DNA of 64,000 nucleotides from Bacteriovorax sp. BAL6_X (lineage in GTDB: Bacteria > Bdellovibrionota > Bacteriovoracia > Bacteriovoracales > Bacteriovoracaceae): positions 248,001 to 312,000 of the forward strand of contig NZ_AUMC01000003.1 of the NCBI RefSeq assembly GCF_000443995.1, read 5' to 3'. The notes below the pieces were generated by a model that worked only from the letters and a program-made list of their open reading frames with translations, made no database searches and had not been told where the DNA came from. A program made the translations under genes and the position numbers. Position 1 is the first letter of the stretch; every line of letters starts with the position of its first letter. Shown here piece by piece: positions 27,117 to 31,618 of the stretch.

Positions 27117-28082
27117 TTGAAAAAAATGACAGGTATTATCGCAATGGCAGTACTTTCTTCTGCAGCATTTGCAAACACAATCGTTCCAGAAACTTCACGT
27201 GATGGAAAAACTAAAAATGATTCAGTAATCGCTACTACTGGTGAAATGAGAACTTTCGTAGCTGGTGAGTATAACTCAAAAACAACAGAGTCTGACGCTG
27301 CTGGTTCATCAGAAGTTGATACAACTAACATGAATGTTTATGGTGCATGGTCAAACAAAATGATCTCTGTTGAAGCAGATATCAACATGGGTGAGTTTGC
27401 CGATACTGATAATGATTCATATGGTGTAAAAGCTGCATATAGAATCAACAAGGATTTTGCTCTAGGTCTTGGATACACAATGATGTCTCAAGATACAGCT
27501 AATGATGATGAGCAAACAAAACTAGAAATCGCTGGTTCATACAATATGAATGACCTAGTAATCGGTGCTTCTTTTGCAATTAACTCTGAAGAAGATAATG
27601 CTGGTACAGACGGTTCATACAACACTCTTACAGTAGGTGTTGGTTCAAACGCTAACAATATGTCTTGGGAAGCAGGTCTTACTTACACAATGGAAGAAGA
27701 TACTGATCTAGATGTAGGTTCAAAATTTGAACTATTTGCTGGTATGACTAAAGTTGTTAACAACATCGAATTAGACGGTGATCTTTCTTATACAACTGGT
27801 GATGCTTCTGCAACTGCTGGTGGTGACTACACTAACCTAGAGCTTAACTTTGATGCTGAATTCCTAGTAGGGAAAATGTTCTACATCACTCCAGGTCTTA
27901 ACTACACAAGCGAAGATAATGATGGTTCAGAAACTAACCAACTTGATCTATCTGCTGACTTTGGTTACAGAGCTAACAAGATCGATGCAACTTTTGGTAT
28001 TGACTATGCTGTAATGGCTGAGTCTAACGATGTTGACTTTGATTCAATGGCTTGGAAAGTTAACGTAGCTTACAACTTCTAA
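27117..28082 (+). CDS. Outer-membrane protein, paralog 1 of a tandem family of four
   Basis: A 321-residue barrel protein with a TTG start at 27117, 6 bases after AAGGAG; an ATG at 27126 is possible but too far from the site. The signal peptide ends at AFA, followed by the family tag NTIVPETSRDGKTKNDS. The body shows repeated amphipathic strands and ends in AWKVNVAYNF. Compared with paralogs 2-4 it uses far more C-ending Asn, Tyr and Phe codons (AAC, TAC, TTC), a pattern expected of a highly expressed gene. Probably the major member of the family. Function (pore, structural or surface) unknown. Confidence 0.85.
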   Translation: MKKMTGIIAMAVLSSAAFANTIVPETSRDGKTKNDSVIATTGEMRTFVAGEYNSKTTESDAAGSSEVDTTNMNVYGAWSNKMISVEADINMGEFADTDNDSYGVKAAYRINKDFALGLGYTMMSQDTANDDEQTKLEIAGSYNMNDLVIGASFAINSEEDNAGTDGSYNTLTVGVGSNANNMSWEAGLTYTMEEDTDLDVGSKFELFAGMTKVVNNIELDGDLSYTTGDASATAGGDYTNLELNFDAEFLVGKMFYITPGLNYTSEDNDGSETNQLDLSADFGYRANKIDATFGIDYAVMAESNDVDFDSMAWKVNVAYNF

Positions 28083-28111
28083 TTTTAATTTTAAAATTTA
28101 GAATATACGTG

Positions 28112-28136
28112 AAGGGAGGCTTATGCCTCCCTTTTT
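28112..28136 (+). terminator. Intrinsic terminator after paralog 1
   Basis: AAGGGAGGC (28112-28120) and GCCTCCCTT (28125-28133) pair over 9 bp with a TTAT loop and a T run. Textbook terminator 30 bases past the stop. Confidence 0.93.
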
Positions 28137-28140
28137 GTTT

Positions 28141-28370
28141 GCGTGCATCCGCAGGAGCGGATGACGCAATTCAACCCAGCGAGTCCCAGGAAGGGACGAG
28201 TCGGGTAAGCAACTATGCAATCTCGCTTACTATTTATTGAATGAATTACTTTGCAAAAAAACGCAGGAGCGGATGACGCAATTCAACCCAGAGGCGACCA
28301 CGAAGAGAGCCTTCGGGTACAGTCTTTGCAAAATTAAGTAGCTCATTATTGAATGAAACTCTTAGTTGTA
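28141..28370 (+). repeat. Tandem 112-bp intergenic element (two copies), probably structured RNA
   Basis: A 30-base block starting CGCAGGAGCGG occurs at 28150-28179 and 28262-28291. The word ATTGAATGAA near the 3' end recurs at 28236 and 28348, giving an exact 112-base period. Copy 1 folds into hairpin A: GCGT-G-CATCCGC (28141-28152), AGGA loop, GCGGATG-ACGC. Its hairpin B has ACCC/GGGT at the base and GTCCC-AGGAA-GGGAC inside (28174-28206). Copy 2 keeps ACCC/GGGT, but the inner stem is AGGC/GCCT (28286-28318), so pairing is preserved though sequence differs. There is no open frame of note in this 395-base gap. An A/T-homopolymer stretch (28398-28440) follows. Confidence 0.8.
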
Positions 28371-28477
28371 AATATAGAATCCACACCCGTCTAAGTTTTT
28401 TTTTTTTAATTAATTTAAGTTTTTATTTTTTTCTTCTTAGTTGAAAATTTGCATATACAAATTTAATGGAGGAAGAA

Positions 28478-29443
28478 ATGAATAAAACATTTATGGCGGC
28501 AACTTTAGTTGGGCTTACAACATCAGCAGTATTTGCAAACACGATTGTTCCTGAAATATCACGTGATGGTAAAACTAAAAATGATTCAACAATTGCAGTA
28601 ACACAACAGATGAGATCTTTTATAGCAGCAGAATATAACTCTACTACGTTTGAGCCTGATGCAGGTGGCGAAATCGATACGACTAATTTTGATATATTTG
28701 GAGGCTGGTCAAATAAAATGCTTTCTATTGAGGCCGATCTCGATTTTGGTAATGTTGATACAGGTGCAGCTGACACTGATTTTACGACTTACGATATTAA
28801 GGCCGGCTTTAGATTAAATAAAGAATTCGCTCTAGGGCTTGGGTATCAGATGATAGACACTGATCCTAATAATGAAGTTTCTACAATTGAAATAGCGGCA
28901 TCATATAATATGAATAATTTTATAATTGGTGCATCATTTAGCATTGTTGATGAAGATACTGGTTCTGCTGATGGTTCTCACAGTAGAATTATATTTGGTG
29001 TAGGCTCAAATGAAACTGCAATGTCTTGGGAAGCAGGTCTTCAATTCGATTTAGAGGAGAAAGATGATGCAGTAACATCTCCTTCTAGAACGAAGTTATT
29101 TGCTGGTACGACAATGATTATAGGTGAAATGGAAATTGACGGAGATATCGATTATACAACTGGTGACTTTACTGTTGCTGGTGGAGATTTTTCTGAGTTA
29201 CATCTAAATATTGATGCTGAGTTCATGGTTGGTGGAATGTTTTATATTACACCAGGTATAGAGTACACAACTACAGATAATAATGGAACAGATACCGATC
29301 AATTAGATCTATCTGCAGATTTCGGATACCGAGCAAATATGATTGATGCTACATTCGGTATTGATTATGCTTTAATGGGTGAGGTCGGAATTGCTGACTA
29401 TGATGAAATGGCATGGAAGATTAATGTTGCTTACTTATTTTAA
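28478..29443 (+). CDS. Outer-membrane protein, paralog 2 of the tandem family
   Basis: The ATG at 28478 follows GGAGGAAG directly; the ATG at 28466 overlaps that site and is rejected. The 321-residue product has a signal peptide ending at AVFA and the tag NTIVPEISRDGKTKNDS, nearly the same as paralog 1. It aligns with paralog 1 along its length (for example GWSNKMLSIEADLDFG, FALGLGYQM, FYITPGIEYTT, QLDLSADFGYRAN) and ends in AYLF. It uses AT-rich codons, so it is likely expressed less. It is separated from paralog 1 by the 112-bp element. Confidence 0.85.
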   Translation: MNKTFMAATLVGLTTSAVFANTIVPEISRDGKTKNDSTIAVTQQMRSFIAAEYNSTTFEPDAGGEIDTTNFDIFGGWSNKMLSIEADLDFGNVDTGAADTDFTTYDIKAGFRLNKEFALGLGYQMIDTDPNNEVSTIEIAASYNMNNFIIGASFSIVDEDTGSADGSHSRIIFGVGSNETAMSWEAGLQFDLEEKDDAVTSPSRTKLFAGTTMIIGEMEIDGDIDYTTGDFTVAGGDFSELHLNIDAEFMVGGMFYITPGIEYTTTDNNGTDTDQLDLSADFGYRANMIDATFGIDYALMGEVGIADYDEMAWKINVAYLF

Positions 29444-29470
29444 AAACTAATTATGATCTAATACCTATTT

Positions 29471-29500
29471 GTAAAAGGGAGATTTTCATCTCCCTTTTAC
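29471..29500 (+). terminator. Terminator after paralog 2
   Basis: GTAAAAGGGAGA (29471-29482) pairs perfectly with TCTCCCTTTTAC (29489-29500); the T run is within the 3' arm. Confidence 0.8.
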
Positions 29501-29542
29501 AGTTGTATAATCGATGACAACATATACGCCTAGGAGCTTTAG

Positions 29543-30538
29543 TTGAAATCGATTACATTTTTAATACTTATTACTCTTTCACTGATTAGTGCTAGTGTAT
29601 CTGCAAATTTTATTCTTCCTGAAATTTCTCGTGATGGTAAAAGCTTAAACACTTCGGTTATTTCTGTCTCTCAAGAAAAAAGAAACTTTACCGCTATCAA
29701 GTATGAATTCTTAAGTGTTAAAAGTGATGCGACTCCAGCAGTTGAAATCAAACAAAGCTCTCCAGGGATTTTAGGCGGGTTTTCGACTAATAGCTTTAGT
29801 GGCCAGTTTAATATGGATATTCCTACCTATGATGTGGAAGGTGTAAAGAACCATGCAACTAATTTTTCATTCCTTGGTGGATACCAAGTAAATAATAAGC
29901 TAACTCTAGGGATTGGCTATACAAAGTCCGAATTAGATATTTCAACAGATGAAAACGTTATTGCAGCAGGTGGAAGTCTTAAAGTAAAAGACAAGGTTTT
30001 AGGTGGTTCTGTTGAATATGTTGAAAATAAAACTTCTAACACAAAAGGTGGATTCTTTGTTTTGAGTGCGGGCTTTGGTCAGCAGGATGCTAAAAATAGT
30101 GTTGAGGCAGGAGTGCAATTAATGACAGAAGGTTCTGGTGACTTAACTGTAGGAAAACGTTTCGCTCTCTTTAGTAGTATGACAAAAGTTGTTAATGGAA
30201 TTGAAATTGATGGTAGCTTCACATACGAGTTTGGAAATTACCTAAATGTTAATGATAATGCATTAGATGGAAATAATTATAATGCGCTTTTCTTTGAATT
30301 CGATGCAGAGTTCTTAGTAGGTTCAAACTTCTATATTACTCCAGGTATTAATTACTCTGCAGAGAATGCTCCAGGTATATCAAATGATACTTCTAATGTG
30401 AGTTTAAAAAGTGATTTTGGTTATCGCACAAAAAGACTAGATGCAACAATTGGTGCAAGTTATGTCTTTATTGGTGAAGAGAACGATATTGATTATGATG
30501 GCCTAGGCTGGTCACTAAATATTGGATATAAGCTTTAA
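29543..30538 (+). CDS. Outer-membrane protein, paralog 3 of the tandem family
   Basis: A 331-residue product starting at a TTG (29543) with TAGGAGC upstream. The signal peptide (ITFLILITLSLISASVSA) is followed by the family tag NFILPEISRDGKSLNTS. It is more diverged than paralogs 1 and 2 but keeps the strand pattern and blocks such as KLTLGIGYTKSE, FDAEFLVGSNFYITPGINY and SDFGYRTKRLDATIG. It ends in NIGYKL rather than Phe. Its own short leader and downstream terminator make it a separate transcription unit. Confidence 0.83.
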   Translation: MKSITFLILITLSLISASVSANFILPEISRDGKSLNTSVISVSQEKRNFTAIKYEFLSVKSDATPAVEIKQSSPGILGGFSTNSFSGQFNMDIPTYDVEGVKNHATNFSFLGGYQVNNKLTLGIGYTKSELDISTDENVIAAGGSLKVKDKVLGGSVEYVENKTSNTKGGFFVLSAGFGQQDAKNSVEAGVQLMTEGSGDLTVGKRFALFSSMTKVVNGIEIDGSFTYEFGNYLNVNDNALDGNNYNALFFEFDAEFLVGSNFYITPGINYSAENAPGISNDTSNVSLKSDFGYRTKRLDATIGASYVFIGEENDIDYDGLGWSLNIGYKL

Positions 30539-30568
30539 TCGATATATCGAAATAAATAAATTATGAGT

Positions 30569-30593
30569 AGGGAGGCTTTGACCTCCCTTTTTA
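30569..30593 (+). terminator. Terminator after paralog 3
   Basis: AGGGAGG (30569-30575) and CCTCCCT (30582-30588) form a 7-bp stem followed by TTTTTA. Confidence 0.85.
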
Positions 30594-30631
30594 TATCCTC
30601 TAAAATAAAAACAAATTATTTATGAGGTGTT

Positions 30632-31618
30632 ATGAATAAACAAATTTTTGTATTTTCGCTATTATTATCATCAACTGCATTTGCAAACCGAGTTATGCCT
30701 GAAATCTCTAAAGATGGTAAAACTAGACATAGCTCTTCAATGGCCGTGGCAAATGACCGCAGACAATTTTTTAATTCTCAATTCGAGGGTGGAAGTGCTG
30801 AGATTCAAGATATCGATACTCTTGATAGCTCTGATTTTGATATCAATGGTGCTTTTGGAAATCGTGTAATTTCGGCCGAATTTTCATATAACGACAATAT
30901 TGGCTTCGCTCAGACTAGGCCAATCATAACAGAGGTAGGTCATAATAGAGAGGCCGTTCTTCTATTAGGGTTTAGGCCTGTTGACTTAGTTTCTTTTGGT
31001 TTTGGTTATCGCAATATAGAAAGAGATATACAAAATAAGAATATAAATACTTTTGAAGTAGAAGCTTCAACAATGTTTAATATTAATCGCGTAAGTTTTG
31101 GCGGTGCTTATAAGTATGTAAAACCAAATTCACAAAGACATGGTTACTATGCGGACTTAACTCTTGCTGGCGGATATTTAGATGAGGTTCTTACTATAGA
31201 ATCTGGTTTAAGTGTTAAGACGAAAAGCCAAGAGCTTAATCGTGGAACACGCAAAGAATTCTTTATTGGTGGAACGCTAAAGCATAGTAACTTAGAATTT
31301 GATACTGATTTCGAATATGAGACTGGGGATAACGGCTACGAAACAGGAGATTATAAGAGAATGAAGTTTAACTTTGATCTTGAAGTTCTTTATACGAAAT
31401 ACCTATATGTAACCCCAGGAATTGATTATAGAAATCTTGAGATTAATAGCTCTAAATCTGAGCAAGTTTATACTTCTGTAGACCTTGGATACCGCGAAAC
31501 AGGAATGGATATTACGCTAGGACTCGATTACCTTGTAGACGGAAATCTAGAGATTTCAAGTCAAGATATTAAGCTTGATCAGTATAGGGTAACTTTAGGA
31601 ATGGGATACCAATTTTAG
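30632..31618 (+). CDS. Outer-membrane protein, paralog 4 of the tandem family
   Basis: A 328-residue product, ATG at 30632 with GAGGTG upstream. The signal peptide ends at AFA and is followed by NRVMPEISKDGKTRHSS, the most diverged form of the family tag (Lys for Arg). The body keeps amphipathic strands and the late block KMKFNFDLEV...YVTPGIDYRNLE; it ends in GMGYQF, the barrel C-terminal Phe. There is no terminator of its own: the stop interlocks with that of the convergent trmL in a TTAG, so transcripts must overlap. Confidence 0.83.
   Translation: MNKQIFVFSLLLSSTAFANRVMPEISKDGKTRHSSSMAVANDRRQFFNSQFEGGSAEIQDIDTLDSSDFDINGAFGNRVISAEFSYNDNIGFAQTRPIITEVGHNREAVLLLGFRPVDLVSFGFGYRNIERDIQNKNINTFEVEASTMFNINRVSFGGAYKYVKPNSQRHGYYADLTLAGGYLDEVLTIESGLSVKTKSQELNRGTRKEFFIGGTLKHSNLEFDTDFEYETGDNGYETGDYKRMKFNFDLEVLYTKYLYVTPGIDYRNLEINSSKSEQVYTSVDLGYRETGMDITLGLDYLVDGNLEISSQDIKLDQYRVTLGMGYQF

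Follow-up and report, generated by a model that had tools for sequence, protein, structure and literature searches.

A structured double-hairpin repeat behind intrinsic terminators in Bacteriovorax and its relatives

The window, a stretch of 64,000 nucleotides from contig NZ_AUMC01000003.1 of Bacteriovorax sp. BAL6_X, carries a short tandem array in the gap between two porin-like genes. As had been claimed from the letters of the sequence, this gap is gene-free: a scan for ORFs of at least 80 aa on both strands found none from 28083 to about 28422. The features of the array and of its upstream neighbor are as follows, in window coordinates.

27117..28082, + strand: upstream host gene for a beta-barrel, porin-like outer-membrane protein (Pfam Porin_4), the first of four tandem paralogues
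28111..28136, + strand: intrinsic terminator of the porin gene, the docking site (10 pairs, 6 of them G-C; hairpin score 7)
28137..28208, + strand: copy 1, a complete double-hairpin unit (model R3, 63.2 bits, E 9.1e-16, full-length scoring with filters off)
28139..28169, + strand: hairpin A of copy 1, from folding, with the loop AGGA at 28153-28156
28170..28173, + strand: linker TTCA of copy 1, from the family alignment A5 (family consensus GAACAAC, in which CAA is nearly invariant)
28174..28206, + strand: hairpin B of copy 1, from folding, with outer stem ACCC/GGGT and top stem GTCCC/GGGAC
28234..28245, + strand: TTATTGAATGAA following copy 1, from repeat comparison and folding
28250..28335, + strand: copy 2, with a degraded hairpin A whose 5′ arm is replaced (R1 match; R3 27.7 bits at 28266-28320)
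28286..28318, + strand: hairpin B of copy 2, with ACCC/GGGT, AGGC/GCCT, tandem G.A and the loop ACGAA
28346..28357, + strand: TTATTGAATGAA following copy 2, from repeat comparison

The terminator previously noticed at the start of the gap is indeed present as a terminator-like hairpin and T-run; it closes with five T at 28132-28136, and copy 1 begins on the very next base, 28137, and not at 28141 as originally placed. The exact period of 112 nt that had been reported was recovered both for a 58-nt block (28150-28207, repeated at 28262-28319 with 81% identity) and for the word TTATTGAATGAA, which occurs at 28234 and again at 28346. The stems were likewise said to be preserved, and this is true of hairpin B, in which ACCC/GGGT is constant while the inner stem differs between the copies, but not of hairpin A, whose 5′ arm in copy 2 has been swapped for a sequence beginning with TTTGCAAAAAAACGCAGG. 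Later copies in several other arrays are similarly altered in hairpin A. In copy 1, hairpin B contains a tandem G.A motif (28181-28182 with 28198-28199) and the loop AGGAA at 28188-28192. Loops exposing GGA, another element of the original prediction, are thus found in copy 1 (AGGA and AGGAA), but the ACGAA loop of hairpin B in copy 2 lacks GGA; the top stem of this hairpin is imperfect, and its arrangement matches that of the C10 copy (AAGC-GA-CC-ACGAT-GG-GA-GCTT). When compared with shuffled sequences, the fold of copy 1 had a z-score of -3.8, with 0 of 200 shuffles as good, and that of copy 2 a modest -1.9, with 9 of 200 as good. The first TTATTGAATGAA can pair with the linker ATTCAA at the window locus only and not family-wide, and a closing stem ATTCAA/TTGAAT enclosing hairpin B was rejected as feasible in the window copies but not across the family. 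The porin-like paralogues occupy 27117-31618, the first sharing 60%, 37% and 32% identity with the others, and one distant match alone was seen for them in other genomes of the genus. Two long T-runs (TAAGTTTTTTTTTTTT and TAAGTTTTTATTTTTT, at a spacing of 24) lie at 28399-28431, ahead of the second porin gene.

The array had been regarded as a local, two-copy element, and what this missed is a family spread over many loci and genomes. The window genome alone holds at least five further loci: contig 8 has a second tandem array, and units occur singly on contig 6 and 3′ of the tRNA-Asp, tRNA-fMet and tRNA-Leu genes. A first covariance model, built on the four copies present at the window and contig 8 loci, already returned weak relatives in other genera with a shared layout of T-run, G, hairpin A, (GAA)CAAC and hairpin B. 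A second model of 13 sequences (R2), which included five T of the T-run, found units in about 17 genera at E values up to 0.1. A third model of 36 sequences (R3), trained on matches of R2 but without the T-run, identified at least 88 units at E 0.001 or better. They are spread over 12 genera and 22 genomes, every one of which belongs to the same family as the window; about 107 other genomes of that family carried none, nor did any of the rest among the 369 searched in the phylum. Copy number is low, at 1-11 units per genome as a minimum. At the Rfam gathering threshold, the window yielded only a tRNA elsewhere and nothing over the element, and at a lax threshold the best match over the element was a chance one of 21.4 bits, against 58.7 required. 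A short-pattern search in relatives gave only chance coding matches, collections of phages, plasmids, viral contigs and genome contigs contained no convincing relative, and a literature search found no description of the present family. The contig 8 array (L003, 1383-1644) lies beside a marC-like gene; its third unit is degenerate, and in one unit the hairpin B loop is interrupted by an insertion of ~48 nt that itself contains two hairpins.

The unit measures ~72 nt and consists of hairpin A, a CAA linker and hairpin B with its tandem G.A motif. In a MAFFT alignment of 36 units that was not fitted to structure, 20 of 25 pairs showed two-sided changes in at least one sequence (160 cells, compared with 53 +/- 6 in shuffles), and 74.5% of cells were paired, compared with 27-42% for slid partners or structures. 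The helix of hairpin A, of 11-13 pairs, is 91% paired and shows two-sided changes in 9 of 12 pairs, the stem sequence itself being widely divergent. Hairpin B has a stem of fixed length, within which the position of a 2x2 GA/GA internal loop shifts (GC-GA-GTCCC versus GAAGC-GA-CC), and the strict pattern GA-stem-loop-stem-GA is found in 34 of 52 units. The loops of both hairpins are mostly ANGA, with AGGA commonest, ACGA frequent and ATGA occasional; loops of the GGA type were counted in 28 of 36 A hairpins and in 22 of 36 B hairpins. Where paired columns are mismatched, G.A is seen 124 times and C.T 10 times, which indicates that the folding strand is the + strand, the one that runs in the direction of the upstream gene. 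Taken together, the covariation across the family and the strand-specific mismatches strongly support the double-hairpin unit as a real structured element whose structure is under selection. The compensatory change described between the two window copies would have been insufficient proof by itself, and it is the wider family that supplies it; the search of related genomes with covariance models, suggested at the outset as a check, returned further homologs and massive covariation in favor of the claim.

Units sit immediately 3′ of terminator T-tracts, mostly those of highly expressed or RNA genes. Since R3 contains no T-run, the flank of its matches could be tested: at least four T directly precede 58 of 67 R3 units, compared with 2.6% of random positions, although training on matches of R2, with its five T, leaves a residual T-run bias. 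A terminator hairpin plus T-run precedes 45 of the 67, compared with 0.4% of random positions. The host genes encode porins, flagellin, ribosomal proteins S1, S21, L19, L20 and L21, HU, NqrF and ribonucleotide reductase, in addition to tRNAs, 5S rRNA and tmRNA; EF-Tu, S1 and some other identities were assigned by eye. Exceptions are the contig 8 locus (C8) and a locus common to G088 and G089 (L338/L321), both of which have a T-run but no terminator hairpin, the T-run at the latter being the end of an ORF. It had been supposed that the element is a small RNA expressed independently, from a promoter of its own, and this finds no support: a scan for promoter-like sites between the porin terminator and copy 1 found none, units abut host T-runs at dozens of unrelated loci, and with zero spacing from the host T-run there is no stretch in which a shared promoter could lie.

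Presence and absence at one site between relatives, as expected of a mobile element, was observed between rplS and rnhB, which are neighbors in many of these genomes; only 1 of 16 genomes is occupied there. That genome (G007) has a three-unit array between the T-run of the rplS terminator and rnhB, and the site is empty in its congener G094 and in 14 other genomes. Units are more alike within a genome than between genomes (identity of 0.71 versus 0.56), and 28 of 52 have their nearest neighbor in their own genome, compared with a permutation mean of 2.5 and a maximum of 9. For example, G059 and G015 both carry an element at the 5S site, but these are just 57% identical, whereas the 5S and S21 elements of G059 are 96% identical to each other. 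This grouping of copies by genome and not by site implies repeated insertion or conversion within genomes, and gene conversion could be an alternative source of the likeness.

With somewhat better than even confidence, then, the window array is read as two units of a dispersed, non-autonomous, structured mobile repeat, REP- or MITE-like in behavior, that docks on terminator T-tracts. Fold, docking and gain are seen directly in the genomes; for the means of spread, we infer an intermediate that is single-stranded, either ssDNA or RNA, and whose pair of ANGA-loop hairpins would be bound by a putative enzyme or other protein, with integration occurring at T-tracts laid open by transcription. Tandem arrays might then arise through repeated insertion or local duplication, and an inserted unit would be transcribed only through terminator read-through. 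No autonomous version of the element was seen, and inspection of Y1 transposase loci turned up no mobilizing gene.

Two known kinds of element share part of this behavior. Group IIC introns insert directly behind intrinsic terminators (PMC3898094, citing Robart et al. 2007), and 45 of 67 units likewise lie after a terminator T-tract. However, the unit is ~72 nt long and non-coding, the window has no Rfam group II match, and neither intron domains V/VI nor a reverse transcriptase was found in the unit, by Rfam over the region and given its short, non-coding nature. In IS200/IS605 elements, a subterminal hairpin whose 5′ foot is short and variable adjoins a fixed short target on one DNA strand (PMC6006769). 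The unit shares this arrangement, but it has no transposase nearby, two tandem hairpins and a T-tract flank.

A bolder version of the mobile reading places the repeat in a new class of mobile nucleic acids targeting transcription termination, in which a double hairpin with tandem G.A and ANGA loops would be mobilized in trans by a putative enzyme and integrate at the T-tracts of active terminators and at the 3′ ends of tRNA and tmRNA genes; this is conceivable, but improbable. In any case, Rfam lacks this family of structured repeats, which is tied very precisely to intrinsic terminators, those of the most active genes. Should it be mobile, it would land on terminators as group IIC introns do, and would provide a system for asking whether DNA becomes open to integration as transcription terminates; should it instead work in place, it would be a read-through RNA element of a new kind. 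Covariance models for the unit family can be rebuilt from the present alignments.

The main rival is such a cis-acting RNA element of terminators, on the whole unlikely, and it may hold together with mobility. The hairpins would work in read-through RNA, with slow spread and a fold kept by selection, and candidate roles include protection or trimming of the 3′ end, recycling of the polymerase, or blocking of read-through into the next gene. The zero gap to the T-run, the same-sense orientation, the maintained sense-strand fold with RNA-like tandem G.A and the strongly transcribed host genes are all as it would predict; several sites are, moreover, common to species (5S and tRNA-His in G059/G015, S1 in G007/G094), and stems still paired in old, diverged copies also fit a function in place. 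However, few terminators per genome bear a unit, most relatives lack one at the same gene, the C8 and L338/L321 loci dispense with the terminator hairpin altogether, and G-T versus A-C mismatches, at 33 to 26 in the unfitted alignment, are not clearly skewed.

One elaboration of the regulatory idea initially put forward, that of GGA loops as the kind of site bound by CsrA/RsmA, is a small RNA made of such hairpins that would sequester CsrA/RsmA in the manner of CsrB or RsmZ. It is now weakened to the point of being very improbable, and is disfavored along with a free sRNA. Like those RNAs, the arrays present several hairpins with AGGA loops (2-6 in an array, AGGA being found in most hairpins), csrA is present, and GCAGGATGC is similar to the CAGGA(U/A/C)G repeat of CsrB (PMC7652899). 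Yet GGA is not required, for some hairpins keep their structure with ACGA or ATGA in its place: about 8 of the 36 A hairpins, and roughly a third of the B hairpins. The 11-13 pairs of hairpin A also contrast with CsrA SELEX hairpins, mostly of four or fewer (PMC7652899). Finally, these long-stemmed units are dispersed behind other genes' terminators with neither a common promoter nor a terminator of their own, and CsrA is encoded in element-free genomes too.

It seems similarly implausible that the units are a REP family mobilized by RAYT (TnpA-REP) transposases. REPs and BIMEs are small, intergenic, palindromic, mostly 3′ of genes, likely non-autonomous and divided into genome-specific subfamilies (PMC3733652, PMC2817692), and the unit resembles them (GTAG and CGTC REPs and BIMEs alike) as a small intergenic palindrome with a sense-strand hairpin, a position 3′ of genes and genome-specific subfamilies; it can also have a GGAG-type head before a near-palindrome, and the window genome has Y1 transposases. 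It departs from them in having a second, distinct conserved hairpin, tandem G.A, ANGA loops and T-tract docking. No GTAG-like head was found 5′ of the palindrome, the head being variable (GGAG, GTTT, GTTA, GCTT, GTCT, GGAA, GGAT, GAAG, TAAG). GTAG REPs occur in high copy number and in inverted pairs, whereas the unit forms direct tandem copies at low number. No RAYT gene flanked by the repeats was found: nine Y1_Tnp loci inspected in the window genome had neither a unit nearby nor a matching hairpin, and G016 has six units yet no Y1 match. In CGTC REPs, the CGTC is an unpaired terminal tag on a stem of 8-9 bp, whereas in the unit it lies inside a paired stem of 11-13 bp.

Mere local tandem duplication with chance hairpins, which would account for two copies at an exact period, is refuted by at least 88 units elsewhere with strong covariation and has next to no prospect of being right. 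A riboswitch or leader was rejected on the grounds that the genes downstream have no relation to one another and can face either way. An integron attC site came into question through the likeness of ATTCAAC to an inverse core site, and was dropped when no matching core was found to follow.

Direct flanking repeats are visible at very few sites. A single unit on contig 9 of G012 (L320) lies between exact direct repeats of 24 bp, or about 33 bp with mismatches, and the repeat rebuilds the 3′ end of a convergent gene. Behind tRNA-fMet on contig 9 of G003 (L327) and tmRNA in G089 (L339) and G111 (L356), the last 21 bp of the RNA gene recur immediately after the unit, and a different terminator stands in front of it, as if terminator and unit had been integrated together as a cassette of ~150 bp. 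Units and flanks are repeated together at several contig ends of G035 (L340-L343, L362), forming a larger dispersed repeat. Finally, a nearly identical terminator region plus unit is found on contig 9 of G003 (L536) and contig 47 of G059 (L530), downstream of tmRNA in one genus and of an argF-like gene (by eye) with a CCACCA remnant in another.
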